From assembly GCA_902761365.1 (NCBI GenBank), contig CACWJZ010000008.1:1-56459 (forward strand): DNA of 56,459 bases, written 5' to 3'. This document shows, piece after piece, positions 8,124 through 45,359 of the stretch. The notes below the pieces were generated by a model. It searched no databases. It was not told the DNA's origin and saw only the letters and a list, made by a program, of their open reading frames with translations. Source of the stretch: an uncultured Eubacteriales bacterium. Lineage in GTDB: Bacteria > Bacillota > Clostridia > Christensenellales > CAG-138. A program made the position numbers and the translations under genes. The first letter of the stretch is position 1. Each line of letters begins with the position of its first letter.

Positions 8124-8174
8124 ATGGGAGAGATTATTTCCGCATCCGCCGAGGATGGGAACAGGGAAACAGGT

Positions 8175-9926
8175 ATGATACGCAAGATATTCCGACAGAT
8201 GCTGGTAACGCAGATCCTGTCCGCCATGACGGTCATGCTCTGCATGCTGGTGGACAGCATGATGATCGGCCGCTTTTTGGGCGTGGACTCCATGACCGCC
8301 TACGGCCTCGCCAACCCGGTGCTGCTCGTCTTCGCCGCCTACGGGGCCATGCTCTCGGCGGGCATCCAGGTCATGTGCGGCAAGACCATGGGCGTGGGCG
8401 ACCGGGAGGGCACCGACGCCTGCTTTTCCGCCGCGGCGGTTCTGGCCCTCACCGTGTCCGTGGCGGGTATGGCGCTCATCCTGCTGCTGGTGAAGCCCGT
8501 GTGCACCCTCCTGGGCGCGGGGCGGCCCGGGCCCGACAACCCGGTGTTCTTCCTCACCCGGGATTATTTGAAAGGCTTCATCGTCGGCGCCCCGGCCTTC
8601 ATCGTGGCCCAGATCATGGTGCCGTTTTTGCAGATCTCCGGCAACCGTTTGCGCCTCGCCTTGGCGGTGGTGCTCATGACCGTCAGCGACATCGCCTTCG
8701 ACCTCCTCAACGTGTTCGTCTTCCACGGCGGGATGCTGGGCATGGGCCTTGCCTCCAGCTGCAGCTACTACCTGGCTTTGATAGTGGGCCTCGCCTACTT
8801 CTTCAAGAAGGACTGCCTGTTCCGGCTGAAGCTGAAGGCGGTGACCAAAAGGGTGTGCGCCGAGCTCTTCCGCTACGGCGTCCCCACCGTCATCAACTCC
8901 CTGGCCATGGTGGTGTTGGTCTTCGCCCTCAACAAGATCCTGCTGGGCGTGGGCGGCAACAAAGCCGTGGCCGCCTACTCCGTGATCTCCACCGTGGGGA
9001 ACATCTGCTACTGCTTCGGCTCCGGCGTGGCCCAGGTATCGCTCCTCCTGGCCGCCATCTTCTACAGCGACGAGGACAGGACCGCCATCTACACCCTGGT
9101 CCGGACCCAGACCTTTTATGCCGCCATCCTGGACGCGGCCCTGGTGGTGCTGGTGCTGCTGCTGGCGCCGGTGCTGGTGGGCCTGTTCTTGGAGGACCCC
9201 ACCGCCCGCGCTATGACCGTCCACGGGCTGCGGCTCTTCTCCTTCTCGCTCCTGCCCTGCTCGCTGAACACCACCTTCAAGAACTACTACCAGGGCGTGG
9301 ACCGGGTCCGGTTCACCAAGGCCATCTCCCTGCTGCAGAACGTGACCTTCCCGGTGCTGGCGGCCTTCCTGCTGAGCCGGCTCATGGGGATCAACGGCGT
9401 GTGGCTCAGCTTCCTGGGCGGGGAGCTGCTGACCATGGCCTTCATCTGCACGGTGGTCTGGAAAAAGAGCAACAAGCCCGCCTTCACCGCGGAGACCTTC
9501 GCCCTGCTCCCCCGGCTCTTCGGCGTGAAGCCCGGGGACATGATCGAGATGACGGTCCGCACCCCCCAGGAGGCGGAGGAGGCGTCCGTGCAGGCGGCGG
9601 CGTTCTGCAAGGCCCACGGGGAGAGCCCCCGCAACAGCATGCTCCTCTCCCTGTGCGTGGAGGAGATGGTCAACAACATCGTGGCGCACGGGTTCAAGGC
9701 GAATCGGACGGACCAGTGCGTGGACATCCGCATCCTCTTCAAGGACGGGCAGCGGATCATCCGCATCCGGGACAACTGTGTCAACTTCGACCCGGTGGAG
9801 TACCTGAAGCTCCACGAGAGCGACGATCCTTCGGCGCACATCGGCATCCGCATGGTCATGAAGATGGTCAAAAGCGCCAACTATGTGAACTCCCTGGGCC
9901 TCAACAACCTGACGTTGGTCCTGTGA
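8175..9926 (+). CDS. MATE family transporter fused to a C-terminal HATPase (RsbW-like) domain
   Basis: A 583-residue protein. Residues about 1-440 are a MATE efflux transporter with twelve predicted membrane segments (start MIRKIFRQMLVTQ; LVDSMMIGRFLGVDSM; a second half-repeat around GVPTVINSLAM). Residues about 455-583 are soluble and carry an N-box-like EEMVNNIVAHGF and a G1-like RIRDNCVNFDP followed by HIGIRMVMK, as in GHKL/anti-sigma kinases. I chose 8175 because the promoter -10 ends at 8123, which excludes ATG 8124. The ATPase domain could sense or regulate; no histidine-kinase dimerisation region is present. The ABC pair follows 36 bases downstream. Confidence 0.85.
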   Translation: MIRKIFRQMLVTQILSAMTVMLCMLVDSMMIGRFLGVDSMTAYGLANPVLLVFAAYGAMLSAGIQVMCGKTMGVGDREGTDACFSAAAVLALTVSVAGMALILLLVKPVCTLLGAGRPGPDNPVFFLTRDYLKGFIVGAPAFIVAQIMVPFLQISGNRLRLALAVVLMTVSDIAFDLLNVFVFHGGMLGMGLASSCSYYLALIVGLAYFFKKDCLFRLKLKAVTKRVCAELFRYGVPTVINSLAMVVLVFALNKILLGVGGNKAVAAYSVISTVGNICYCFGSGVAQVSLLLAAIFYSDEDRTAIYTLVRTQTFYAAILDAALVVLVLLLAPVLVGLFLEDPTARAMTVHGLRLFSFSLLPCSLNTTFKNYYQGVDRVRFTKAISLLQNVTFPVLAAFLLSRLMGINGVWLSFLGGELLTMAFICTVVWKKSNKPAFTAETFALLPRLFGVKPGDMIEMTVRTPQEAEEASVQAAAFCKAHGESPRNSMLLSLCVEEMVNNIVAHGFKANRTDQCVDIRILFKDGQRIIRIRDNCVNFDPVEYLKLHESDDPSAHIGIRMVMKMVKSANYVNSLGLNNLTLVL

Positions 9927-12417: not shown

Positions 12418-13158
12418 ATGAAAAAAGTTGCTTCCATGATCGTCGCCCTGCTGCTCACCGTCGGTACCGGCATGGCCGCATTTGCCGCGGAGGAGCCCCC
12501 CGCCGACCTGCACGCCGACATTCAGCCGGTGGTGGATTCCCCGGCCTGGGTGGTCGCCCTGCCCGCCGCGCAGGAGGCCGACCAGCTGTTCGTGGTGGCC
12601 GGCATGGGCATGGATCTGACCACCGCCACCATCTCCCTCCATCAGAAGGACGAAAACGGGGTCTGGAAGCAGTTGCTGTCCACCCCCGGCTTCGTGGGCA
12701 AAAACGGCCTGTGCCTGGACAAGGACCATCGGGAGGGCTGCGGGCAGACGCCCATAGGGGTCTATCATTTCAACAAGGCCTTCGGCATCGCCGCCGATCC
12801 CGGCTGCGCCCTCCCCTACGTGCAGGTGGACGACAACACCTACTGGTCCGGGGACCCCGGCGAGCACTACAACGAGATGGTGGACATCCGTGACTACCCG
12901 AACCTGCTGCTGGACGACAGCGAGCACATCGTGGACTACGAGTACCAGTATCAGTACTGCCTCAACATCAGCTTCAACGAGGAGGGGACCCCGGGCCGGG
13001 GCTCCGCCATCTTCCTCCACTGCTTTGGCCCCCTCAAGCCCTACACCGGCGGGTGCGTGGCGGTGCCGGAGAACATTATGAAGCTGATTATAAAGACCGT
13101 GCGGCCGGACTGCGTGGTGGTGATCGACACCTTCGCGAACATGAACGGCAGCTTCTGA
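12418..13158 (+). CDS. L,D-transpeptidase (YkuD-type) family secreted protein
   Basis: A 246-residue exported protein: signal peptide of about 24 residues ending FAAEE, then a single YkuD-like catalytic domain. The active-site block is FLHCFGPLKPYTGGCVAVP, with His201 and nucleophile Cys213; the usual S/T-H-G-C is T-G-G-C here. TPIGVYHF is the typical entry strand of the domain. These enzymes cross-link tetrapeptide stems (3-3 bonds), or anchor proteins or hydrolyse in some subfamilies. The start follows AGGAGG. The SpoIIE-type gene starts 61 bases later and the VanX/VanY fusion is 2.3 kb downstream on the same strand. Confidence 0.8.
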   Translation: MKKVASMIVALLLTVGTGMAAFAAEEPPADLHADIQPVVDSPAWVVALPAAQEADQLFVVAGMGMDLTTATISLHQKDENGVWKQLLSTPGFVGKNGLCLDKDHREGCGQTPIGVYHFNKAFGIAADPGCALPYVQVDDNTYWSGDPGEHYNEMVDIRDYPNLLLDDSEHIVDYEYQYQYCLNISFNEEGTPGRGSAIFLHCFGPLKPYTGGCVAVPENIMKLIIKTVRPDCVVVIDTFANMNGSF

Positions 13159-13219: not shown

Positions 13220-15253
13220 ATGAAACGGCTGAAACAACATGTGACCGTCAAAAGCATCACCGGCATCGTGGCGCTGCTGGTGCTGTTCTCCGTGATCGTC
13301 AGCATCATCGGTTATCGGACCTTCACCAACGCCCTGCTGAACCAGTACGCGGAAGGCGCCTTCCTCACGGCCCAGACCGCCGCCGAGCTGGTGGACGCGA
13401 ATCGGATGGACGAGTATGCCCAGAGCGGCGGCACCACCCCGGAATACCTGGCGGTGTGGAACCGGCTGGACCACCTGTGCAACACCTCCGGGTCCACCTT
13501 CATCTACGTGATCGAGCCAGACCGGTCCGACTACGGGCACATCACCTTCCTGTTCTCCACCATCGACCACGACAGCCCCTACACGAAATACGACTTCGGC
13601 TTCCTGCGGGAGACCACCAACGACGAGTACCGAGCCAAGTACCGGGCCCTCTACGAGCTGGCGACGGACCGGGAGCTGGTGATCCGGGATAAGGGCAACA
13701 TCGAGACCGACTCCCACATCACCGCCATGATGGGCCTCAAGGGGTCCGACGGCCAGGTGAAGGGGATCCTCTGCGTCCAGCGGCAGATGGACATTTTGAC
13801 CGGGGTGCGCAACACCTTCCTCAACAAGGTGGCCCTGGCGATGATCGGCCTCATGCTCCTGGTCATCATCGGCCAGAGCGTGTACCTCCACCGGGTGCTG
13901 CTGCGGCCCCTGAACCTGATCACCGAGGAGGCCGCCCGCTTCTCCACGGAGAACAAGGCCGCCGAGCACAAGCTCCAGGAGAGCATCCGCAACCGGGACG
14001 AGATCGGGAAGCTGGCCGCCTCCGTGGATCGGATGGAGGAGCAGATCGAGACCTACATCGCGGACATCACCCAGATCACCGCCGAGCGGGAGCGGATCAG
14101 CACGGAGCTCTCCTTGGCCACCCGCATCCAGGCGGCCTTCATCCCCCATCTGTTCCCCCCCTTCCCCGACCGGCCTGAGTTCGCCCTCTACGCCACCATG
14201 GACCCGGCCAAGGAGGTGGGCGGCGACTTCTACGACTTCTTCCTCATCGACGAGGACCATCTGGGCCTGGTCATGGCCGACGTGTCCGGCAAGGGCGTGC
14301 CGGCGGCCCTGTTCATGATGGCCTCCAAGATCATCCTGCAGAGCTGCGCCATGCTGGGCCAGGGCCCGGCCGCCATCCTCACCAAGACCAATGAGGCCAT
14401 CTGCTCCAACAACCAGGAGGGCATGTTCGTCACGGTGTGGCTGGGCATCTTGGAGATCTCCACCGGCAAGCTCCGTGCGGCCAACGCCGGCCACGAGTAC
14501 CCGGTGCTCAAGCCCGCGGACGGGGATTTCGCCCTGCTGAAGGACAAGCACGGCTTCGTCATCGGCGGCATGAGCGGCGTGCGGTATCGGGAGTACGAGC
14601 TCCAGCTGACGCCGGGCGCCAAGCTCTTCGTGTACACGGACGGCGTGCCTGAGGCCAGCAACGCCCGCAACGAGCTCTTCGGCACCGAGCGGATGCTTTC
14701 CGCCCTGAACGAGCGCGCCGACGGAACGCCGGAGGACATTCTCGCCACCGTGCGCCGGGCCGTGGACGGCTTCGTCCAGGAGGCGGAGCAGTTCGACGAC
14801 CTCACCATGCTGTGCCTCGAATACAAGGGCCCCCAGGCCGCGCCCGCCCGGGAGCTGACCGTGGACGCCGCGGTGGAAAATATCCCCGCGGTGACGGCCT
14901 TCGTGGAAGCGCAGCTGGACGCCGTGGACTGTTCCCCCAAGGCCCGTGGGCAGCTGAGCATGGCCATCGACGAGATCGTGGCCAACATCGCCCAGTACGC
15001 CTACGCGCCGGAGGTGGGCCCCGTCACGGTGCGCTTCGCCTTCGACGAGGGGACCAGGACCGCCACGCTCACCTTCCTGGACAAGGGATTGCCCTACAAC
15101 CCCCTGGAGAAGGCGGACCCGGACGTGAGCCTGTCCGCCGAGGACAGGCCCATCGGGGGCCTGGGCATCTTCCTGGTGAAGAAGACCATGGACGGCATGG
15201 CCTACGCCTACAAGCACGGCCAGAACGTCCTGACCATACAGAAGCGGCTCTAA
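13220..15253 (+). CDS. Membrane sensor with SpoIIE/RsbU-type PP2C phosphatase and C-terminal HATPase domain
   Basis: A 677-residue protein. TM1 (about 13-35) and TM2 (about 205-228) flank an extracellular sensor region of about 170 residues. A HAMP-like linker (about 228-290) leads into a PP2C phosphatase (about 300-530) with EVGGDFYDF, ADVSGKG, NAGHEYP and YTDGVPEA, including the metal-binding Asp residues. A HATPase_c domain (about 545-677) has AIDEIVANIAQYAY, FLDKGLPYNP and GGLGIFLVKK. Such proteins control partner-switching cascades; phosphatase and anti-sigma-like kinase in one chain suggests both arms are fused. No anti-anti-sigma or sigma gene is nearby. RBS AGGAGGGAAGG precedes it. 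Confidence 0.9.
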   Translation: MKRLKQHVTVKSITGIVALLVLFSVIVSIIGYRTFTNALLNQYAEGAFLTAQTAAELVDANRMDEYAQSGGTTPEYLAVWNRLDHLCNTSGSTFIYVIEPDRSDYGHITFLFSTIDHDSPYTKYDFGFLRETTNDEYRAKYRALYELATDRELVIRDKGNIETDSHITAMMGLKGSDGQVKGILCVQRQMDILTGVRNTFLNKVALAMIGLMLLVIIGQSVYLHRVLLRPLNLITEEAARFSTENKAAEHKLQESIRNRDEIGKLAASVDRMEEQIETYIADITQITAERERISTELSLATRIQAAFIPHLFPPFPDRPEFALYATMDPAKEVGGDFYDFFLIDEDHLGLVMADVSGKGVPAALFMMASKIILQSCAMLGQGPAAILTKTNEAICSNNQEGMFVTVWLGILEISTGKLRAANAGHEYPVLKPADGDFALLKDKHGFVIGGMSGVRYREYELQLTPGAKLFVYTDGVPEASNARNELFGTERMLSALNERADGTPEDILATVRRAVDGFVQEAEQFDDLTMLCLEYKGPQAAPARELTVDAAVENIPAVTAFVEAQLDAVDCSPKARGQLSMAIDEIVANIAQYAYAPEVGPVTVRFAFDEGTRTATLTFLDKGLPYNPLEKADPDVSLSAEDRPIGGLGIFLVKKTMDGMAYAYKHGQNVLTIQKRL

Positions 15254-15468: not shown

Positions 15469-18408
15469 ATGAACGAAGCACCGAAACCCACGAACCGCTG
15501 GAAATCAATCGCCATCGTCGCCCTCGTCGTCGCTCTGATCGCCTGCGGCGCGGTGGTGTACCTGCTGAACCGGCCCGTCCCCGAGACGCCGGTGTTGACC
15601 AGCATCGACCGGCCTGCGCTCCAGGCGGAGCCCCAGGCCGAGCCCACGGCGGAGCCCCCCTCCGCGCTCCAGGCGGAGCCCCAGGCTGAGCCCACGGCGG
15701 AGCCCATTTTCGACGTTACCGAGGTGCCCAAGCCCGCCGAAGCGCCCCTGTCCCTGTGGACCGACGGGGCCCTGGCCAGGGAGTCCCTGCAGGCGTACAT
15801 GGACATGATCACCTCCGACGGCGTGGGCTACATCCCGCCGGAGGATCGGATCGCGGTGTTCGATCTGGACGGGACCCTGTTCTGCGAGACGGACCCGGTC
15901 TACTTCGACTACAGCCTCCTCCTCTACCGGGTGACCCAGGACGAAGACTATAAGGACAAGGCCAGCGACTTTGAGCGGGAGACCGCCCGGAAGATCCAGG
16001 AGATGATCCTCACCGGCAAGTCCGCCCAGGGTCTGGAGGTGGACCACGGCAAGTGCGTGGCCTCCGCTTTCGCGGGCATGACCATCCCCGAGTTCGAGGC
16101 CTACTGCAAGAAGTTCCGGGAGCTGCCCGCCCGGGGCTATGAGGGCATGACCATCGGCGAGGGCTTCTACCGGCCCATGCTCCAGGTGGTGGACTACCTG
16201 GTGGCCAACGACTTCAAGGTCTACGTGGTCAGCGGCACGGATCGGCTCATCGTTCGGGGCATCGTGAAGGATTCCCTGCTGAAGGTCCCCATGGAGCAGA
16301 TCATCGGCTCCGACGAGACGCTGGTGGCCCGGCAGCAGGGAGACGCGGACGGCCTCGACTACGTGTTCACCAAGGGGGACGACGTGGTCCTGGGCGGTGA
16401 GTTCATCGTGAAGAACCTGAAGATGAACAAGGTCACCGTGATCCTCCAGGAGATCGGCAAGCAGCCGGTCCTCTCCTTCGGCAACAGCACGGGCGACGCC
16501 AGCATGGCCGAGTTCGTGACCAACAACAACCCCTACCCCAGCATGGCCTTCATGCTCTGCTGCGACGACGAGGTCCGGGAGAACGGCAGCGCCACGAAGG
16601 CCGAGAAGATGGCGAAGCTCTGCGCGGAGTTTGACTGGGTGCCCATCTCCATGAAGGACGACTGGACCACCATCTACGGGGACGGCGTCACGCGCAAGGC
16701 CACCCCCGACAGCGTGATCTTCGACATCCCGGAGAAGGTGCAGGAGAGCGACGTGAAGCTCTCCGACGATGCCTCCGACTTCGTGCTGCTCTCCGAGGCG
16801 GTGCCCGACGCCATTTTGGAGATCCGCTACTACTCCACCTATAACTTCATCGGCGACAGGATCGACGGCTACGAGGAGCCTCTGGCCCTGCTCACCAAGG
16901 AGGCCGCCGCGGCCCTTCGGGAGGTCAGCGACGAGCTGCTGACAAAGGGCTACCGGCTGAAGATCTTCGACGCCTACCGGCCCCAGCGGGCGGTGACCAA
17001 CTTTATGAACTGGGCCCTCGATCCGGACGACGCCCGCATGAAGGAGTACTTCTACCCCGAGCTTGAGAAGGACGTGCTCTTCCCCCAGGGCTATATCGCC
17101 GAGCATTCCGGCCACAGCCGGGGCAGCACCGTGGATCTGACCCTCTTCGACATGCGGACGGAGCGGGAGGTGGACATGGGCGGCACCTTCGACTACTTCG
17201 GCCAGCTGAGCCACCCGGACTACACCGAGATCACCGCCGAGCAGTACGCCATGCGGATGCTCCTTCGGGAGGTCATGCTCAAGCACGGCTTCAAGCCCCT
17301 GGAGGAGGAGTGGTGGCACTTCACCCTGAACGATGAGCCCTTCCCTGACACCTACTTCACCTTCCCCGTCAACAGCGAATCCGTTCCCCCCTTCGACCCA
17401 GCCGCCATGCCCGCCAACACCGCCGCCCCCGTCCAGGACGAGATGGCCCGGCCGACGAGCGCCCCAGCGGACATCGACTACCTGGCCCTGGTGAACAAGG
17501 TCAGCGCCCTGCCCGAGGGCTGGGAGGACGCCCTCAAGACCGTGACCGTCACCAACTCCGTGAACGACGCGGTGACGGTGGAGCAGAAGGCCTATGACGC
17601 CTACCTGAAGCTGAAGGACGATCTTGAAAAGAACGACGGGATCTACCTGGAGCTGGATTCCGCCTTCCGGAGCGTGGCTCAGCAGGAAGACATCATGACC
17701 CGCTTCATCGAGAAGTACGGCGAGGACTACGCCACCAAGACCGTGGCCCAGCCCGGCTACTCCGAGCACCACACGGGCCTTGCCCTGGACCTCTACTTCA
17801 AGCTGAAGAACGAGGACGGCACCTTCACCGATGTCTACCACAACGAGGACATGGAGAAGGCGGAATATACGCCCATCTGGGAGAAGATCCACAGCAAACT
17901 GGCCGACTACGGCTTCATCCTCCGCTACTTGCCCGGCCTCGAGCACATCACCGGCTACCGCCACGAGCTCTGGCACATCCGCTACGTGGACAGCGTGGAG
18001 GTCGCCAAAGCGATCATGGCCGAGCCCGCCATGACCCTGGAGGAGTACCTGAAGGGCCAGCGGGCGCCGGAGGCCGCCATCGACCTTAGCGGCAGCGCCC
18101 TCTACTCCCCCGAGGAGCTCACGGACGCCATGTTGGCCGTCAAGTGCAAGTTCGCCGCCTTTGCGGGCTGCGAGCTCCACAGCATCCGCTACGGCGGGGA
18201 CGAGGCCGCCACGGAGGAGAATCTGGCCTGGCTGAATTCTCATAAGGAGAAGGCCAGCTATACCAAGGTCATGAAGCTGTTGACAAACTTCCATACCGAC
18301 GCGGACATCATGGGCGCCTGGGAGCCCGATCAGGAGTACACCGACTACCAGTGGTGGCTGGGCTTCAACGCCAAGGGTGAGTGGGAGATCGTCGACTGGG
18401 GCTATTGA
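15469..18408 (+). CDS. Extracellular HAD phosphatase - VanX D,D-dipeptidase - VanY D,D-carboxypeptidase fusion protein
   Basis: A 979-residue protein. The N-terminus is basic, then hydrophobic (about 13-33) with a lipobox-like LIAC at 23-26, so it is membrane- or lipid-anchored outside the cell. Next come a Pro/Glu linker with two 16-residue repeats, then a HAD domain (about 130-400; FDLDGTLF, VVSGTDR, SFGNSTGDAS). A VanX/M15D domain follows (about 440-645; DAYRPQ, HSRGSTVDL, EEWWHF, giving the His/Asp/His zinc site and catalytic Glu). A VanY/M15B domain (about 665-850) has LDSAFRS, YSEHHTGLALDL and HELWHIRYV. A C-terminal domain (about 870-979) is unrecognised. All motif residues are intact. 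ATG 15469 follows AAGGAG; the ATG at 15462 is out of frame. Confidence 0.9.
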   Translation: MNEAPKPTNRWKSIAIVALVVALIACGAVVYLLNRPVPETPVLTSIDRPALQAEPQAEPTAEPPSALQAEPQAEPTAEPIFDVTEVPKPAEAPLSLWTDGALARESLQAYMDMITSDGVGYIPPEDRIAVFDLDGTLFCETDPVYFDYSLLLYRVTQDEDYKDKASDFERETARKIQEMILTGKSAQGLEVDHGKCVASAFAGMTIPEFEAYCKKFRELPARGYEGMTIGEGFYRPMLQVVDYLVANDFKVYVVSGTDRLIVRGIVKDSLLKVPMEQIIGSDETLVARQQGDADGLDYVFTKGDDVVLGGEFIVKNLKMNKVTVILQEIGKQPVLSFGNSTGDASMAEFVTNNNPYPSMAFMLCCDDEVRENGSATKAEKMAKLCAEFDWVPISMKDDWTTIYGDGVTRKATPDSVIFDIPEKVQESDVKLSDDASDFVLLSEAVPDAILEIRYYSTYNFIGDRIDGYEEPLALLTKEAAAALREVSDELLTKGYRLKIFDAYRPQRAVTNFMNWALDPDDARMKEYFYPELEKDVLFPQGYIAEHSGHSRGSTVDLTLFDMRTEREVDMGGTFDYFGQLSHPDYTEITAEQYAMRMLLREVMLKHGFKPLEEEWWHFTLNDEPFPDTYFTFPVNSESVPPFDPAAMPANTAAPVQDEMARPTSAPADIDYLALVNKVSALPEGWEDALKTVTVTNSVNDAVTVEQKAYDAYLKLKDDLEKNDGIYLELDSAFRSVAQQEDIMTRFIEKYGEDYATKTVAQPGYSEHHTGLALDLYFKLKNEDGTFTDVYHNEDMEKAEYTPIWEKIHSKLADYGFILRYLPGLEHITGYRHELWHIRYVDSVEVAKAIMAEPAMTLEEYLKGQRAPEAAIDLSGSALYSPEELTDAMLAVKCKFAAFAGCELHSIRYGGDEAATEENLAWLNSHKEKASYTKVMKLLTNFHTDADIMGAWEPDQEYTDYQWWLGFNAKGEWEIVDWGY
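15616..15705 (+). repeat. 48-bp tandem repeat inside the fusion gene linker
   Basis: Two copies with a 48-base period starting at 15616 and 15664, nearly identical, encode ALQAEPQAEPTAEP twice in the extracellular linker. A copy-number-variable spacer is likely. Confidence 0.8.
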
Positions 18409-18422
18409 GCGCCAATGAAACT

Positions 18423-18776
18423 AAAGCGGCTGTCTCAAAACAGCTTTCATGTTTCTGAGCTATGAATAAATACTTGTCATCCTGACCGAGGGAGCGAAAA
18501 CGCAAGGATCATACTCGAATAGAGACATGAGCGACCGAGTGGAAGGACCTCTGAACGGAAAAGCTTGTAGCGGAGATACGCAGTTCGCTACGACCAGTAC
18601 CGTTCTGAGATCCCTCCGCTCGGTCGCTTCTGCATCAATACGGTCAAGTTTTTCTCTGTGCGCTTCCTCGGTCGGGATGACAATGAGGGTATAAAAATGA
18701 CGGCATTTGATCCTAGCAATGAACCAGCCACCATTTTTTCGTATTTGCGGGTGTTTCTTACTGAGACAGCCGCTTT
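18423..18776. mobile_element. MITE-like element with nested inverted repeats
   Basis: This fills the only gene-free stretch above 300 bases (18409-18825). A perfect 15-bp terminal inverted repeat AAAGCGGCTGTCTCA (18423-18437) matches its complement at 18762-18776. Inside it, TGTCATCCTGACCGAG (18475-18490) pairs with 18667-18682 with one mismatch. No transposase is encoded; short frames inside are not protein-like. The right terminal repeat is followed by T residues and may also act as a terminator. I see no convincing target-site duplication. Confidence 0.6.
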
Positions 18777-18825: not shown

Positions 18826-21800
18826 TCAGGCCTCCATGCCGGCGGGCCGGTCGCTGACGGCGGGCTCGTCCACGGCGGGCTGGGGCTTCTTGTCCCGGCG
18901 GAGCAGGTCGTAGAGGACGGGGACGATGAAGATGGTCATGAGGGTGGCGTAGGTGAGGCCGCCGATGCACACGATGGCCACGGGCTGGATGATCTCCGCC
19001 CCGGTGCCCAGGCCTAACCCCAGGGGCAGCAGGCCCAATATGGTGGTCAGGGCCGTCATAAGCACGGGCCGGATGCGCATGGTGGCCGCCTTCACGATGG
19101 CCTCCCGCTTGGGAAGGCCATCCTCCCGCAGGCGGTTGGCGCAGTCCACCAGCACGATGCCGTTGTTGACCACCACGCCCACCAGCATGATCATGCCCAC
19201 CATGGACACGATGCTCATGTGGAAGTCGGTGACGAGCAGGCCCAAGAACCCGCCTGCGAAGCTGAGAGGCACGGTCAAAATCACGATAAAGGGGCTCAGC
19301 AGCGACTGGAACTGGGCCACCATGATGAGGTAGATGATGAGCACGCCCAAAAGGAGCATGAAGAACAGGTCCCGCATGGCGTCCATGATGGTCTCGTTCT
19401 CGCCCGCGTACTCCACCTGGCACCCGGCGGGCAGCTGCACCTCCTGGATGGCCCGGCGGGCGTCGGCGGACACCAATGTCACGTTGTAGCCGTCGACCAC
19501 GGTGGCGGTGACGGAGATGTAGCGCCGCTGCTCCAGCCGGTGGATGGAGGACAGGGTCTCGCTTTCGGTGAGGGTGATGATTTCCATGAGAGGCACCTCC
19601 TCGGTGGTGCCGTCCCGCTTGGTGGCATTCAGGGTCATCTTCTCCAGCTTCTGCCGGTCCGTCTCCCCGTTGGCCGAATGGATGGTGGCCGAGAGGGCGG
19701 CGGTGCTGGTGGTGACCTGGGTGGCGCTGACGCTGCTGGTCAGCTCCTGGACGATGGCCATGTATACCTGGGCGGTGGTCAAGTTGTGCTCGATGGCCTT
19801 CTCCTTGTCCACGGTGATGTGCAGAGCCGGAGAGGTCTCCTCCGCCCCGCCGCTGATCTCCTTGAGACCCTCCACCGTCTTGAGCTTCTCCGCCACGGCC
19901 TGGGCCGCGGTCCGAAGGTCCGTGAGGTCGTTGGAATAGATGTTCATGGTGAAGCCGCCGCTTTGGAGCATGTTGCTCATGCTCATGGTGGACACGGTGG
20001 TCACCTCGAAGTCCGCGTACCGCTTGAAGGGCTCCAGGACCCGGCGAATGTCCTTCGTGGCCTCGATGCTGCTGTAGCCGCTGTTCTCGTCCACCAGGGC
20101 GTAGACCGTGATCTGGTCGTCGCCGCCGCCGGAGGAGAGGCCCACCAGGCTCTCCATGCCGCCGTTGATCATGCCGCCGATGTCCGTGAGATGGGGCACA
20201 CTCTCCATGGCGTACATCATCTCGTCCGCCAGGAAGCAGCGGTCGGAGAAGGTGTAGTCCTCCGGCGCATTCACGGTGATGGAGATCTGGGTGCCGCCGC
20301 TTTCGGGGAAGTATTCAAAGCCCTGCTTCAGGGAGTACCAGGCGGACCCGCCCAGGATGGCTAAGGCGAGCAGCAGCGCCAGCGCCCGGTGGCGCAGGTG
20401 GAAGCGGACCGTCCCCTCGAAGGCGCCCATCAGCTTTCGGGCCAGCTTGCTCATGGGCCGGACCTCTCGCCGCAGGAGCCCCTGGGCCATGGCCGGAATC
20501 ACGGTGAGGGCCACGATGAGGCTGGCCATGAGGGAGTAGGTGATGGTCAGGATCATGTCCATGAACACCTGCCTGGTGAGGCCATGGACGAAGAGGATGG
20601 GTACGAAGACGCAGATGGTAGTCAGTGTGGAGGCGGTGATGGCCCCCATGACCTCCTTCGCCCCCTGGATGGCGGCCTCCCGAGGCGCCACCCCCTCGGC
20701 CCGCAGCCGGTAGATGTTCTCGATGACCACGATGGAGTTGTCCACCAGCATGCCGATCCCGATGGCGAGGCCCGCCATGGAGATCACGTTCATGGTGACC
20801 CCGGAGAAGTACATGAGCACCAGGGCAAAGAGCACGGACACGGGGATGGAGATGCCCACGGCGAAGGTGGGCCGGATGTCCCGGAGGAACAGGAACAGGA
20901 TGAGGATGGCCAAGGCGCCGCCCAAAAGGAGGCTCTGGATCACGGCGGACATGGCCATGTGGATGTAGTCCCCCTGGTCCATGAGGGCCACGAACTGCAG
21001 GCCCGGGTACTGCTTCTCCAGCTCCCGGAAGCGGCTGTCGATATTGTCCGCCACGGTGGCGGTGGCGTAGGCACTTTGGCGGGTGAAGGTGAGCAGGACC
21101 CCGTTTTCCCCGTTGATGCGGGCGTAGGTGGTGTCGCCGTTGTCCGCGATGTGCACGTCGGCCACGTCACCCAGGCGAATCACGTCCACGTCGTCCAGGC
21201 CCAGGGACAGGATGGCCACGTTTTCCAAAGCCTCCACGCCCTTGACCTTGTCGCCCACGTTCACGATCCAGCTCACGTCCCCGTCGGACAGATACCCGGC
21301 GGGCATTTCAAAGTTCTGGGCCTGCAGGAGCTGAGCCACCAGCTCCTTGGTGAAGACCCCGTGCAGATCCGCCGCGCTCTTGGCGTCGGACAGCTGGTCC
21401 AGGGCCTCGTGCATGGCGTCGTCCAGGGCCTGCTGGCTGTCGTTCAGCTCCGCCTCCCCGTCCTCGATCTGTTGGCGTCCCTCGTCGATCTGCTTCTGGG
21501 CGTCGGCGAGCCGACCATTCACGCTGCCCTTCTGATGGGACAGCTCCTTGTAGCCGGCCTCCACCTGGGCAAGGCCCGCCTTGGCCTCCGCCAGCTTCCC
21601 GTCCAGCAGGGCGATGGTGTCGTCGATGTGCTCCAACTGCTGGATGAGCCCGGGCAGCTGGGCCCGGGTGACGCCGTACTGGCTAAGCTGCCCGTCGATG
21701 GCCGCCAGCTGCCGGTTCACCTCGTCCAGGGCTGCCTGGACCGGCGCCAAAGCCGCCGCCTGCTCCTCCGGGGATAGATCGCTGTTGCCCGTGATTTGGG

Positions 21801-22749
21801 CGATAGTCGCCTCCAGCTCCGCCTTCTTGCCCTCCAGCTGGCGGATGGCGGACTGCAGCGACCGCAGGGCCGGGAGCTTATTCTGGGCGTCCTCCTTCTG
21901 CTTGAGCAGCTGCTCCCGCTGCTTCTTCATGGTGTCGATGGCCGCCTCCAGCTCTGCCTTGGTGCTGTCCAGCTTCTTCTTGGCCTTGCGAAAGGCGCGG
22001 TTGGCCTCCGCCCGGCCGGTCTCCAGCTCCTCCTCCCCCTTTTCGAGCTCGCTCTTGGCGTCCTCCAGCTCCTGTCGGCCCTCGTCGATCTGCTGCTGCC
22101 CCTCGTCGATCTTGTCGAAGCCCTCCTGGGCCGCCTCATCGATGGAGCCGAAGAGCTTTTCGTTCAGCCGGTCGATCTTTTCCTTGTTGAGCTCGATCTC
22201 GATCCGCTCCGCCACCAGGCCCGTGGCGTTCACCGAAGCCACGCCGTTGGTGCCCTCCAGGGCGGGCAGCAGGGTTTCGCTGGCGAAGCCCGACAGGCCG
22301 ATGGGGTCCATGTCCTTGTAGTGGACCGCCGCCACCACCGTGGGGATCAGATCCGTGGACAGCTCCAGGGCGGTGGGGTTGCCCACGGCCTCGGGCCAGT
22401 CGCTCTTGAGCTTCGTGACCGCCTGCTGGATGTCCAGCATGGCCCTGTCCACGTTCACCGTGTCCTCGAAGGTCAGGTACACCACGGACACGTTCTCCGA
22501 GGAAACGGAGTTGATCTGCTTGAGATCGTCCAGGGCCGCCAGAGACTGCTCCAGGGGCTTCGTGACGGTGGTCTCCACCTCCTCCGGGGCCGCGCCCACA
22601 TAGCTGGTGATCAGGACGATGTAGGGGAAGCTCATCTTGGGCAGCAGATCCGGGGTCATCCTGGTCACGGAGACCGCGCCCAAGACCAGGACCAATATGA
22701 CCGCCACCAACACGGTGAAGGGCTTTTTAACGCTGTACTTGGAGATCAT
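18826..22749 (-). CDS. RND (HAE1/AcrB-like) efflux pump with large coiled-coil insertion
   Basis: A 1307-residue inner-membrane RND permease. It starts MISKYSVKKPFTVLV, with the porter N-terminus SYVGAAPEEVE, then TM blocks with the proton-relay region GIGMLVDNSIVVIENI (a D-N motif) and the second half VGMIMLVGVVVNNGIVLVD. The usual length is 1030-1065 residues. The excess is an insertion of about 250 residues (about 205-455) in the first porter loop, made of Glu/Lys/Gln heptads (IDEGQQQIDEGRQELEDAK) predicted as an antiparallel coiled coil. There is no membrane-fusion-protein gene beside it. In a monoderm the coiled coil may reach the wall. The substrate is unknown; SwrC of B. subtilis is the closest known type. 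Confidence 0.9.
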   Translation of the reverse strand: MISKYSVKKPFTVLVAVILVLVLGAVSVTRMTPDLLPKMSFPYIVLITSYVGAAPEEVETTVTKPLEQSLAALDDLKQINSVSSENVSVVYLTFEDTVNVDRAMLDIQQAVTKLKSDWPEAVGNPTALELSTDLIPTVVAAVHYKDMDPIGLSGFASETLLPALEGTNGVASVNATGLVAERIEIELNKEKIDRLNEKLFGSIDEAAQEGFDKIDEGQQQIDEGRQELEDAKSELEKGEEELETGRAEANRAFRKAKKKLDSTKAELEAAIDTMKKQREQLLKQKEDAQNKLPALRSLQSAIRQLEGKKAELEATIAQITGNSDLSPEEQAAALAPVQAALDEVNRQLAAIDGQLSQYGVTRAQLPGLIQQLEHIDDTIALLDGKLAEAKAGLAQVEAGYKELSHQKGSVNGRLADAQKQIDEGRQQIEDGEAELNDSQQALDDAMHEALDQLSDAKSAADLHGVFTKELVAQLLQAQNFEMPAGYLSDGDVSWIVNVGDKVKGVEALENVAILSLGLDDVDVIRLGDVADVHIADNGDTTYARINGENGVLLTFTRQSAYATATVADNIDSRFRELEKQYPGLQFVALMDQGDYIHMAMSAVIQSLLLGGALAILILFLFLRDIRPTFAVGISIPVSVLFALVLMYFSGVTMNVISMAGLAIGIGMLVDNSIVVIENIYRLRAEGVAPREAAIQGAKEVMGAITASTLTTICVFVPILFVHGLTRQVFMDMILTITYSLMASLIVALTVIPAMAQGLLRREVRPMSKLARKLMGAFEGTVRFHLRHRALALLLALAILGGSAWYSLKQGFEYFPESGGTQISITVNAPEDYTFSDRCFLADEMMYAMESVPHLTDIGGMINGGMESLVGLSSGGGDDQITVYALVDENSGYSSIEATKDIRRVLEPFKRYADFEVTTVSTMSMSNMLQSGGFTMNIYSNDLTDLRTAAQAVAEKLKTVEGLKEISGGAEETSPALHITVDKEKAIEHNLTTAQVYMAIVQELTSSVSATQVTTSTAALSATIHSANGETDRQKLEKMTLNATKRDGTTEEVPLMEIITLTESETLSSIHRLEQRRYISVTATVVDGYNVTLVSADARRAIQEVQLPAGCQVEYAGENETIMDAMRDLFFMLLLGVLIIYLIMVAQFQSLLSPFIVILTVPLSFAGGFLGLLVTDFHMSIVSMVGMIMLVGVVVNNGIVLVDCANRLREDGLPKREAIVKAATMRIRPVLMTALTTILGLLPLGLGLGTGAEIIQPVAIVCIGGLTYATLMTIFIVPVLYDLLRRDKKPQPAVDEPAVSDRPAGMEA

Positions 22750-42838: not shown

Positions 42839-43738
42839 TCACCGGCCCGGCTTTCGGTGGTAGTCCTCCCCGTACCGGATGCTCTCGCCGCTGCTCTCGA
42901 TGAGCTCCGTGACGGTGACAAGGTCATACCCCTGCGCCTGCAGCCAGGGGATCACCTCCCTGAGGGCGGTGACGGTGGTGGGCAGCCGATCGTGGAAGAG
43001 GAGGATGGCCCCGTCCTTGGCCTCCTTCTGCACGGTCTTCAGGATGGTCCGCGGGTTCTTGTTGCTCCAGTCCCGGGTGTCCACGGACCAGCGGATGCTG
43101 GCCACGTTGGCGGCCTTGCAGGCCCGGCGCACAGCCTTGTTCAGGTTCCCGAAGGGCGGCCGCAGCAGGTGCGGGTCATAGCCGCCGTCAATCTGGGCGG
43201 AGATGAGGGCCCGCATCCGCTCGATGCGCTTGGTGTTGCTGGCGGTGGAGAGGCGGGTCAAATCCGCGTGGGTGAGATCGTGCATGCCGATGTCGCAGCC
43301 TAAATCCAGCATCCGCTGCAGGATGGGCCGCGTCTTCTGGTTGAGGCTCTTGCCGATGACGAAGAAGGTGCCCTTGGCCCCGTACTGCTCCAGCAGGTCC
43401 AGCACCTGGGCCGTGTACTCCGTGGGCCCGTCGTCGAAGGTCAGGGCCACCATGGGCCGGTCCGGGTCCGGGGTGGGCTCCGGGGTGGGCGTGGGCGCCG
43501 GGGTGGCCGTGGGCACGGGCGTGGGCGCCAGCGTGGCGGTGGGCGTGGGCCGGGGCGTCATGGTGGCCACGGGCGTCTGCGCGTCCACCAGGATGGTCTG
43601 GGGCGGCGCCAGGGTGGCAACCGCCATATGGGGCGTGGGCGTGGGCGATGCCGCCAGGGCGGACGCGGACACCTCTCCTCCGCAGCCCCATAGCAGCAGC
43701 GGCACCAACAACATGAGCAACAATCGTTTCATACCCAT
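42839..43738 (-). CDS. Polysaccharide deacetylase (NodB) lipoprotein
   Basis: A 299-residue lipoprotein: signal with LLWGC lipobox (Cys19), then a Thr/Pro/Ala linker (about 40-90) and a NodB domain (about 92-285). Motifs: ALTFDDGPTEYT (catalytic Asp pair), MHDLTHADL (zinc His pair), LRPPFG, WSVDTRDW and LLFHDRLP. It would deacetylate peptidoglycan or another GlcNAc polymer outside the cell. ATG 43738 or 43732 could be the start; I see no strong ribosome site at either. The Thr/Pro linker style matches the other surface proteins here. Confidence 0.88.
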   Translation of the reverse strand: MGMKRLLLMLLVPLLLWGCGGEVSASALAASPTPTPHMAVATLAPPQTILVDAQTPVATMTPRPTPTATLAPTPVPTATPAPTPTPEPTPDPDRPMVALTFDDGPTEYTAQVLDLLEQYGAKGTFFVIGKSLNQKTRPILQRMLDLGCDIGMHDLTHADLTRLSTASNTKRIERMRALISAQIDGGYDPHLLRPPFGNLNKAVRRACKAANVASIRWSVDTRDWSNKNPRTILKTVQKEAKDGAILLFHDRLPTTVTALREVIPWLQAQGYDLVTVTELIESSGESIRYGEDYHRKPGR

Positions 43739-43785
43739 AGAATACCACGTTTCCCGGCAAATATCACTCAAAAGCTTTCAAAAAA

Positions 43786-43811
43786 GCCCCTTTTCCCGCA
43801 GGAGAAGGGGC
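43786..43811 (-). terminator. Terminator of the TrkA-C gene
   Basis: GCCCCTT/AAGGGGC stem; on the minus strand it is followed by TTTTTT. 18 bases past the stop. Confidence 0.7.
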
Positions 43812-43829
43812 AAAGAGCCGTTTTTGGGC

Positions 43830-44543
43830 CTACTGCTCGCTGAACCGCTCCCGGGCGTGGAAGGCCCGGCTGATGGTGGCGTAGTCCCCGAAGACCGTGA
43901 GCTTGTCCCCGGGCCGGAAGACCGTGTGGGCGCTGGCGGGCTCGGCCTTGCCGCCCTTGGGCTCCACCAGCATGACCAGGATGCCGTAATCCGGCTTGAG
44001 GCCCGACTCCGACAGGGGCTTGTTTTGAAATGCCTCCGGCACCTCGTTCAAGGTCACCTGGGCGATGGTCTCCTGGCCGATGTAGTCCATGAGCCAGATG
44101 GTGTTGGCGATATCCTTATGGACGATGCGCCCCGCCAGCTTCTCGATGAGCCGGTCGCCCCAGGCCCGGACCTTCGGCACCCGCATGAAGGCCACGATGA
44201 ACAGGATGGCCAGCAGAGGGATGATGCTGCTGACCAAATCCGCGGCCAGCTCCGACACCTTCAGGGAGAAGAACACGTTGATGAACGCGGACACGATGGT
44301 GATGTTGAACACGTACCCGAAGAGCATGGTGATCCTGGCGAGGCGCCGCCGCGACCGGGTGGTCAGCAGCAGCTCGCTCTCATGGGTGGTGAAGCCGCAG
44401 CCCGTCAGCAGGGAGATCACCTGGAACCGAGCCTTGTCGTCGGGCAGGCCCGTGAAGCGAAAGAGCATGGCGAACAGCTCCGAAATGACCCAGTAGCCCA
44501 GAATGATCAGCGCGAACAGAGAAAACGCGAGATAGATATTCAT
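43830..44543 (-). CDS. Membrane protein with C-terminal RCK_C (TrkA-C) domain
   Basis: A 237-residue protein. The N-terminal half has three membrane helices (about 5-25, 70-95, 105-122) separated by a basic loop (FTTHESELLLTTRSRRRLAR). The C-terminal part (about 150-225) is an RCK_C domain (IAQVTLNEVPEAFQNKPLSESGL, FRPGDKLTVFGDYATI), which in other proteins binds cyclic di-AMP or nucleotides. It does not contain a full channel or transporter. RBS AGGAGGGG. Possible c-di-AMP-responsive partner of a potassium system; inference. Confidence 0.8.
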   Translation of the reverse strand: MNIYLAFSLFALIILGYWVISELFAMLFRFTGLPDDKARFQVISLLTGCGFTTHESELLLTTRSRRRLARITMLFGYVFNITIVSAFINVFFSLKVSELAADLVSSIIPLLAILFIVAFMRVPKVRAWGDRLIEKLAGRIVHKDIANTIWLMDYIGQETIAQVTLNEVPEAFQNKPLSESGLKPDYGILVMLVEPKGGKAEPASAHTVFRPGDKLTVFGDYATISRAFHARERFSEQ

Positions 44544-44567
44544 GTCGCCCCTCCTTATGATACCCCC

Positions 44568-44579
44568 ATGGTATACCAT
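44568..44579. promoter_or_regulatory. 12-bp palindrome upstream of the TrkA-C gene
   Basis: ATGGTATACCAT, preceded by GATACCCCC. It lies 25 bases before the TrkA-C start, near where a minus-strand promoter should be; part of it could be the -10. Confidence 0.3.
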
Positions 44580-44625
44580 TTTTCCCGTTCGGGCAAGAAA
44601 AACCTGCACAAATCCGTCGCGGCCA

Positions 44626-44654
44626 TTGCAAAGGACGGGGATGTGTGCGACAAT
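44626..44654 (+). promoter_or_regulatory. Promoter of the 44688 operon
   Basis: TTGCAA (44626-44631), a 17-base spacer and GACAAT (44649-44654). Confidence 0.45.
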
Positions 44655-44687
44655 AGGGGCAGAATATACGAAATGAGGGAGGGCACC

Positions 44688-45359
44688 ATGACGAAGCGGC
44701 TGTTTTGGCAGGCCATGGGCAAGTTCTGGCTGGGCGTGCTGGGGGTGGGGGCGCTGATCTTCCTGCCCGCGGGCACGTTGCAATTCGGGCAGGGGTGGCT
44801 CCTCATGGGGGTCCTGTTTGTGCCCATGTTTTTGGCGGGGCTGTTCCTGATGGCCAAGGACCCGGACCGGCTTCGGCGGCGGCTGGACGCCCGGGAGAAG
44901 GAGATGACCCAGAAGCGGGTGCTGGCCCTGTCGGGGCTCATGTTCCTCACCGCCTTCGTGCTGGCGGGGCTCAGCTTCCGGTTCGGCTTTCTCCGGTTTC
45001 CCGGATGGGTCAGCATCCTGGGCGCCGTCCTGTTCCTGCTGGGGTACGTGCTCTATGCCTTCGTGCTGAAAGAGAACGCCTACCTCGCCAGGACCATCCA
45101 GGTGGAGCAGGGACAGAAGGTGGTGGACACGGGCCTCTACGGCGTCGTCCGCCACCCCATGTACGCCGCCACGCTCCTGCTGTTTTTGTCCATGCCCCTC
45201 ATTTTAGGCTCGCTCCTGGCGTTCCTCGTGATGCTGGTCTACCCCTTCCTCATCGCCCGCCGCATCCAAAATGAGGAGCAGGTGCTCCTGCGGGAGCTGC
45301 CGGGGTACGGGGCGTATCGGCAGAAGGTCCGCTGGCGGATGATCCCCTACGTTTGGTGA
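44688..45359 (+). CDS. Isoprenylcysteine carboxyl methyltransferase-like membrane protein
   Basis: A 223-residue membrane protein with about five helices and the C-terminal ICMT/PEMT signature GLYGVVRHPMYAA, then EEQVLLRELPGY. Bacterial members methylate unknown lipids or small molecules using SAM. The start follows GAGGGAGGG. Its stop is 11 bases from the ATG of the amidohydrolase; first of four tightly packed genes. Confidence 0.85.
   Translation: MTKRLFWQAMGKFWLGVLGVGALIFLPAGTLQFGQGWLLMGVLFVPMFLAGLFLMAKDPDRLRRRLDAREKEMTQKRVLALSGLMFLTAFVLAGLSFRFGFLRFPGWVSILGAVLFLLGYVLYAFVLKENAYLARTIQVEQGQKVVDTGLYGVVRHPMYAATLLLFLSMPLILGSLLAFLVMLVYPFLIARRIQNEEQVLLRELPGYGAYRQKVRWRMIPYVW

Follow-up and report, generated by a model that had tools for sequence, protein, structure and literature searches.

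A predicted membrane-anchored HAD-VanX-VanY fusion protein in an uncultured Eubacteriales bacterium and its clade of exported-type VanX relatives

The fusion gene and its domains

The stretch of DNA analysed here (the window) comprises 56,459 nucleotides, positions 1 to 56,459 of contig CACWJZ010000008.1 in assembly GCA_902761365.1, and derives from an uncultured Eubacteriales bacterium. At 15469-18408 of its forward strand lies a single intact open reading frame (ORF), with an ATG start, 979 codons and no internal stop, whose product joins a HAD phosphatase, a VanX-type dipeptidase and a VanY-type carboxypeptidase. An earlier note on the same DNA had described these three enzymes, with intact motifs, in one 979-residue chain. 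The ORF is exact and all three domains pass their Pfam cut-offs, but the description lacked a fourth domain at residues (aa) 867-979, the C-terminal domain (CTD). The arrangement is real and unusual, yet it is a new combination of already known kinds of enzyme. The features concerned are as follows.

15469..18408 (+): HAD-VanX-VanY-CTD fusion gene, 979 aa (ORF, Pfam and solved-structure matches)
15505..15567 (+): hydrophobic segment, aa 13-33, including LIAC; probable signal anchor with the N-terminus inside and the rest outside (sequence; AlphaFold helix 9-33; same segment in sister proteins)
15571..15744 (+): stalk rich in Pro, Ala, Glu and Thr, with low predicted local distance difference test (pLDDT) scores and a 24-bp tandem repeat at 15624-15705
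15745..16704 (+): HAD-IB phosphatase domain, aa 93-412 (Pfam, alignment, profile, and 4ovy fold match at E 1.6e-12)
16741..17388 (+): VanX-type D-Ala-D-Ala dipeptidase domain, aa 425-640 (Pfam, solved relatives, active-site alignment, fold match)
17389..17469 (+): linker rich in Pro, Ala and Thr at the fusion junction, between the end of the DNA match to locus L001 and the start of that to L008
17470..18066 (+): VanY/LdcB-type carboxypeptidase domain, aa 668-866 (Pfam, solved relatives, alignment, fold match)
18067..18405 (+): CTD, aa 867-979, possibly NTF2/ketosteroid-isomerase-like, a weak match (9 aligned relatives; 3bb9, E 0.012)
12418..13158 (+): gene of the YkuD type (L,D-transpeptidase family), encoding a signal-like N-terminus and lying two genes upstream of the fusion (Pfam 21.5 of 23.4 bits, just under the cut-off)

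The conserved motifs begin at residues 132 (DLDGT) and 338 (GNSTGD) in the HAD domain, 502 (AYRP), 549 (HSRGSTVD) and 614 (EWWH) in VanX, and 765 (SEHHTGLALD) and 832 (HELWH) in VanY; LIAC is found at residue 23.

The VanX domain is matched by Peptidase_M15 (PF01427) at residues 435-634 with 136.4 bits (cut-off 27). A solved relative is 1r44 (E 1.4e-44), the VanX of Enterococcus faecium, which has the same fold and the same catalytic and substrate residues, with 40% identity in the Foldseek alignment. The active-site set is present as H549, D556, H617, E614 and R504 (zinc ligands, catalytic Glu and Arg, the last being Arg71 in VanX), and Y454, S547 and D575 align with the dipeptide-binding Tyr21, Ser114 and Asp142 of VanX. 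All eight checked residues are kept in each of the 48 exported and 31 cytosolic VanX rows described below. The E. faecium enzyme is cytoplasmic and encoded in a vanHAX operon, whereas the window VanX lies behind a predicted anchor segment, with no D-Ala-D-Lac ligase alongside. The ratio of non-synonymous to synonymous substitution rates against the sister gene at locus L001 is about 0.09 for VanX and 0.19 for HAD, indicating purifying selection on both domains.

The VanY domain (PF02557, residues 703-840, 101.7 bits, cut-off 25) has the LdcB-type structure 4mph as a solved relative (E 7.4e-20). The zinc motif SxHxxGxAxD...ExxH is present, with H767, D774, E833 and H836 placed from the motif. 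This domain has the fold and zinc motif of the M15B carboxypeptidases LdcB, VanY and VanXY (4mph, 4ox3, 5hnm and 4mus), from which it differs in its additional CTD and its fusion to VanX and HAD. The curated NCBIfam cut-offs are missed: 92.6 of 250 bits for VanXY, 80.7 of 275 for LdcB, and 45.8 and 49.1 against 400 and 425 for VanY. The CTD has no Pfam match, although it accompanies this VanY in all nine other VanY relatives aligned; a ketosteroid-isomerase-like assignment was rejected, the 3bb9 match being too weak for a name.

Since the full-chain AlphaFold model was of middling quality (mean pLDDT 61.3, the VanY part matching solved folds at low TM-score), VanY-CTD was modelled separately, with a mean pLDDT of 83.8. 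The resulting model matches VanXYc, LdcB and VanY structures about equally and is thus compatible with either a D,D or an L,D preference. The VanX part of the full-chain model aligns with the solved VanX fold. The earlier note had made its reading depend on the superposition of the zinc ligands on VanX and VanY structures; the agreement seen is that of the predicted folds for both domains and, for VanX, of the active-site residues in the sequence alignment.

The HAD domain is matched by PF12710 at residues 129-348 with 30.6 bits (cut-off 27), and the HAD-IB motifs DxDGT, SGT, K and GNSxGD are present. Five residues (D40, D42, S163, K223 and D251, corresponding to window residues 132, 134, 255, 315 and 343) are invariant in a 32-row alignment. 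The NCBIfam HAD-IB model TIGR01488 is matched by 22 of these rows at E 0.01 and not by the window's own row, so that its probable placement in HAD-IB comes from its kin. A solved relative is 4ovy (E 1.7e-24 in a search with the window protein; E 9.2e-42 for a whole-domain profile match), which shares the HAD motifs; the entry title names Planctomyces limnophilus and calls the protein merely a HAD hydrolase. Phosphorylcholine, proposed earlier as an assay substrate, finds little backing, because the match to phosphorylcholine phosphatase (4as2), whose HAD motifs are alike, is weak and partial (E 1.6e-4, positions 99-200 of a 318-position profile).

Membrane anchor and export

Following a basic start, residues 13-33 form a hydrophobic stretch of about 21 residues that is predicted to be helical, and the sister HAD-VanX proteins have an N-terminal segment of the same form. 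Sequence and model together suggest a probable single-pass signal anchor. A lipoprotein is possible but less likely, since LIAC lies inside the hydrophobic helix and the sisters share the segment. The export-type N-terminus claimed in the earlier note is therefore upheld, and of its "membrane or lipobox-like anchor" the membrane anchor is retained while the lipobox recedes. Lipobox-like starts were seen by eye in six of nine VanY-CTD relatives, and a lipobox-like pattern precedes the first domain in 22 of the 56 exported VanX ORFs introduced below.

Origin of the chain

The window protein reads as a genus-type HAD-VanX protein with an added VanY-CTD module. DNA identity to the sister HAD-VanX gene (L001) is 91% over 15742-17384 and ends there, whereas the 73% match to a stand-alone VanY gene of another Lachnospiraceae metagenome-assembled genome (MAG; L008) begins at 17472 and continues to just beyond the stop. 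The VanY-CTD gene of L008 encodes a lipoprotein-type start, and a HAD gene follows it directly. Among 12 genomes of the genus, the window's own included, two (G009, which carries L001, and G004, which carries L207) have complete HAD-VanX genes that end after VanX, and a third (G008) has HAD-DUF3089-VanX. Two others (G003 and G005) are no guide to the absence of VanY, because their HAD-VanX genes break off at a contig end or at a stretch of Ns. The survey for this architecture suggested in the earlier note thus yielded HAD-VanX in the sisters and no second full chain: no other VanX-VanY chain was seen in the 12 genus genomes, in 103 family genomes (queried with VanX only) or in 396 order genomes (queried with VanX-VanY).

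The full chain is consequently known from one assembly, itself 69% complete, and the joining of two genes by assembly has to be weighed. A repeat element lies about 60 bp beyond the stop, and the CTD alone (113 codons) stands at a relative synonymous codon usage (RSCU) distance of 0.13 from five neighbouring window genes. For VanY and CTD together this distance is only 0.058, against 0.115-0.216 for six foreign relatives. The G+C content at third codon positions is 0.935 in the VanY part and 0.894 in the CTD, compared with 0.641-0.804 in five of these relatives (L008, L009, L013, L021 and L019). The VanY part, though like a foreign stand-alone gene, therefore has the codon usage of the window, and a chimera with foreign DNA was rejected on this ground, as the earlier note's single chain would require. 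Moreover, the linker is in frame and the repeat element lies outside the ORF. We consider an assembly artefact of any kind highly improbable; its variant in which two genes of one genome were joined falls outside the codon-usage argument and keeps a small share of that chance. The repeat itself is a 221-bp element with inverted ends (18470-18690), resembling a miniature inverted-repeat transposable element, with 38 match rows in the assembly (self and reverse-strand rows counted) at about 22 distinct places.

A clade of exported-type VanX

The relatives were assembled using the following approach: (i) The whole window protein served as the query for similar loci, and L001-L080 are the best 80 of 208 relatives. 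HAD-VanX fusions are over-represented for this reason, YkuD, DUF3089 and acetolactate decarboxylase (AAL) being outside the query. (ii) The exported set comprises 56 VanX ORFs from the window, L001-L080 and six further genome loci, at a threshold of 75% VanX identity to the window (at least 79.5% was observed); three of the 56 (L002, L003 and L062) are incomplete. (iii) Export was judged by a hydropathy threshold of our own, which is not a signal-peptide predictor. A strongly hydrophobic stretch precedes the first domain in 54 of the 56 ORFs, the two without it being L052 and L076, and in none of 20 cytosolic-type relatives.

In a 79-row VanX tree (quick search, midpoint root) one branch, with a Shimodaira-Hasegawa-like approximate likelihood ratio (SH-aLRT) support of 100, separates the 48 exported rows from the 31 cytosolic ones. 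The exported rows share 75-100% identity with one another (median 83%) and the cytosolic rows 72-100% (median 79%), against 58-69% between the two groups. By their record names the exported rows belong to Lachnospiraceae, Oscillospiraceae, Eubacteriaceae, Erysipelotrichaceae and four Succinivibrionaceae genomes, and the clade thus spans Bacillota and Succinivibrionaceae. The family label changes at least nine times over the 35 labelled rows, where four changes would suffice, a scatter that is likely explained by horizontal transfer. Such transfer need not be recent, because synonymous sites are saturated in the comparison with Ruminobacter. One of six scanned neighbours on the Ruminobacter contig passes the curated Bcr/CflA cut-off (PRK11102), which fits a genuine contig without proving it. 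A holin-like gene (TIGR01593; L066, 2341-2763) lies close to the exported VanX in Ruminobacter.

Phages and plasmids were considered as the main vehicle and rejected. Only two weak records were obtained from 50,697 phages, with no confirmed relative in viral contigs, and of the 458 matching plasmids among 72,556, 401 are from Enterococcus and a single one reaches 60% identity (60.4%).

The titles of 40 of the 80 records name a ruminant host or stomach; a further 22 carry RUG or RGIG series names and 5 carry RUI names, and 13 are silent. The close relatives of the window bacterium thus come from ruminant guts, as does the clade largely. Among 398 genomes drawn evenly from the phylum, only one other had a match near this identity (G779, 81%), the next reaching 68%. 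Exported and cytosolic VanX genes are directly adjacent in L004, L034 and L039, an arrangement hinting that one substrate is processed on both sides of the membrane.

Module fusions and gene neighbourhoods

About half of the exported VanX ORFs (27 of 56) are fused to another modelled module (HAD, DUF3089, YkuD, AAL or VanY), in permuted order. HAD-VanX occurs eight times, YkuD-VanX six, HAD-DUF3089-VanX five, VanX-YkuD three and AAL-VanX twice, and HAD-VanX-VanY-CTD, DUF3089-VanX and VanX-HAD once each. The remaining 29 have no other modelled module, although L062 and L064 among them contain other Pfam domains. Parts named by Pfam are DUF3089, acetolactate decarboxylase, YkuD, fn3, the C-terminal domain of SAM-hydroxide adenosyltransferase and tyrosine phosphatase. 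The nine architectures of the 48 exported rows require at least 12 changes on the VanX tree. AAL-VanX proteins with a lipobox-like start are encoded at L065 (8966-10654) and L074 (1610-3274), one of them in Eubacterium ruminantium FB3002.

At 16 of 56 exported VanX loci, YkuD is part of the VanX ORF or lies no more than 5 kb away, compared with none of 23 cytosolic and none of 24 HAD-only loci (one-sided Fisher p = 0.0019 against the cytosolic loci and 1.9e-5 pooled; since the loci are related and their flanks vary, these values are only a guide). This count takes L207 in place of L200, which shares a contig with L039; with L200 it becomes 15 of 56, with 24 cytosolic loci. Flanking DNA differs in length between loci, and HAD-only loci were scanned whole. 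The YkuD of these loci is one subfamily, with 61-80% identity to the window gene at 12418-13158. YkuD is also the commonest of the close same-strand neighbours of exported VanX (4 of 43 such ORFs among 89 flanking ones), followed by families found twice each and an otherwise mixed set. In L014, VanX, YkuD and HAD are three consecutive genes. A different family of the same phylum also has VanX-YkuD fusions, present in two of its genomes (L167 and L168) with a VanX identity of 66-68%.

The mixed and permuted partners, and the number of architecture changes, could mean that unrelated secreted enzymes have been joined because several can use one export signal and anchor, each acting on its own nutrient. 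Several observations weigh against a common D-Ala-related purpose. HAD is not specific to exported VanX, lying within 5 kb at 5 of 24 cytosolic loci as well as at 20 of 56 exported ones; for DUF3089 the numbers are 3 of 24 and 7 of 56. Some of the cytosolic VanX genes so flanked adjoin an exported one. Acetolactate decarboxylase, DUF3089 and tyrosine phosphatase have no evident link to D-Ala, and the modules may accordingly share only an anchor. VanY occurs with VanX only in the window and L062 (2 of 56), and none of the genes next to the window gene was shown to serve D-Ala transport or catabolism. On the other hand, YkuD recurs with exported VanX both as a fusion and as a separate neighbour, and near no cytosolic VanX or HAD-only gene. 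We regard a bundle of unrelated enzymes as possible, though on the doubtful side.

At L062 (9863-12550), HAD, VanY-CTD and VanX modules lie next to one another, and the VanX continues into an alpha/beta hydrolase. This locus was rejected as an instance of the same three enzymes in neighbouring genes and counts only as module co-location, because its HAD and VanX reading frames are incomplete.

Other ORFs were noted in the window. Directly upstream of the fusion gene, 13220-15253 encodes a single chain in which a HAMP-SpoIIE phosphatase carries a C-terminal HATPase domain of its own, and 8124-9926 encodes, in one 600-aa ORF, a MatE-type transporter with a C-terminal HATPase_c_2 domain (the region has 87% DNA identity in the sister L002). 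At 18826-22749 this Bacillota genome encodes a 1307-aa RND transporter (AcrB-type), whose best Pfam stretch begins only at residue 468, a second stretch lying apart. The 718-aa ORF at 43203-45359 has a C-terminal isoprenylcysteine/phospholipid methyltransferase-like domain.

Resistance, remodelling or salvage

A single D-Ala ligase was found in the 69%-complete genome assembly; it lies on contig C2, the window being C8, and has the Tyr that marks D-Ala-D-Ala ligases (a D-Ala-type motif). As the earlier note stated, there is no vanA in the window, the only ligase found being elsewhere (vanH, vanR and vanS were not searched for). The gene is probably not part of a resistance operon. The NCBIfam VanX equivalog model is missed (206 bits, 320 required). 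Glycopeptide resistance, with VanY trimming pentapeptides and VanX removing D-Ala-D-Ala, is suggested by the family names, and a VanY outside the membrane could reduce the D-Ala-D-Ala ends that glycopeptides bind. An exported VanX, however, cannot access the cytosolic dipeptide pool, and together with the D-Ala-D-Ala type of the ligase and the missed VanX and VanXY cut-offs this makes resistance very improbable.

Alternatively, the proteins may remodel the cell's own wall, VanY/LdcB and YkuD setting stem-peptide length and cross-link type and the exported VanX clearing the D-Ala-D-Ala that is released. The match of the VanY fold to LdcB, VanY and VanXY structures and the YkuD association are consistent with this role, for which a membrane anchor would hold the enzymes in place. 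Yet this YkuD is missing at 40 of the 56 exported VanX loci, within 5 kb and as far as the flanking DNA extends, VanY is missing at 54, and the HAD part is left without a role, so that we judge own-wall remodelling unlikely.

PcgL is a single-domain, VanX-like protein; Hilbert et al. in 1999 reportedly described it as a periplasmic D-Ala-D-Ala dipeptidase of Salmonella. According to PMC3760250 it is periplasmic and allows growth on D-Ala-D-Ala, and it is called a D-Ala-D-Ala dipeptidase in PMC7933661 as well. It thus acts outside the cytoplasm, as proposed for the window VanX, but in a Gram-negative periplasm, whereas the window protein is a predicted membrane-anchored multi-enzyme chain of Bacillota. 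The earlier note considered an extracellular VanX odd in itself; PcgL and the export-like N-termini that are the rule in the 56-locus clade indicate otherwise, and its idea of a released dipeptide as substrate would fit. A cultured rumen bacterium, Selenomonas ruminantium TAM6421, provides a further parallel. On its plasmid pSRC1 (L212, 123198-131863), a VanX with a signal-like N-terminus (WP_014431147.1, M15) lies 2.5 kb from an L,D-transpeptidase of the same YkuD subfamily (WP_014431142.1), and ABC transporter genes follow. The pSRC1 genes are separate, with no HAD or VanY seen within 8.7 kb, and the VanX has 60% identity to that of the window.

The vanHAX survey in PMC9689679 considered neither MAGs nor loci in which one or more of the three genes were missing, and would for this reason miss the exported clade. 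The specificities of VanX, VanY and VanXY are described in PMC6403190, and passages of PMC6868206, PMC3335776 and PMC7641745 contain nothing decisive for function. Among the literature titles and beginnings of abstracts listed, with subscription journals mostly outside coverage, there was none on exported VanX in the rumen, and no paper was found that combines VanX with a YkuD domain.

Salvage of the D-alanine ends of cell-wall material by a surface-anchored enzyme, rather than glycopeptide resistance, is the explanation that we favour, tentatively and at a little less than an even chance. The signal anchor and stalk would keep the chain outside the membrane. The VanY/LdcB domain would clip the last D-Ala off the stem peptides of peptidoglycan, whether the cell's own or that of lysed neighbours. 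Free D-Ala-D-Ala would be cleaved to two D-Ala by the VanX domain, and the HAD domain would take phosphate off some phosphate monoester, the small products then being imported. We infer the substrates, any D,D or L,D preference, the uptake and the shared purpose of the three activities. The salvage proposal is based on the conserved VanX residues, the export-like N-termini, the fused modules, the recurrent YkuD, the purifying selection, the PcgL precedent, the pSRC1 neighbourhood, the D-Ala-D-Ala-type ligase and the gene order in L014 and L008.

The exported, recombining VanX clade and its link to YkuD are the part most worth following. More speculatively, and with considerable doubt, ruminant gut bacteria of at least two phyla may share horizontally passed exported modules that run an extracellular D-Ala-D-Ala economy, in which YkuD or VanY would free D-Ala or D-Ala-D-Ala, the exported VanX would destroy the dipeptide, and the modules fuse repeatedly. 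Such an economy, if true, would be a new pathway of peptidoglycan salvage or remodelling. VanX and VanY are best known for their part in resistance; in the present set the close kin of VanX form an exported-type, well conserved clade in several families, which could cause false calls of vancomycin resistance in rumen metagenomes. If D-Ala-D-Ala is indeed cleaved outside the cell, the exported VanX would show how rumen bacteria recover wall material.

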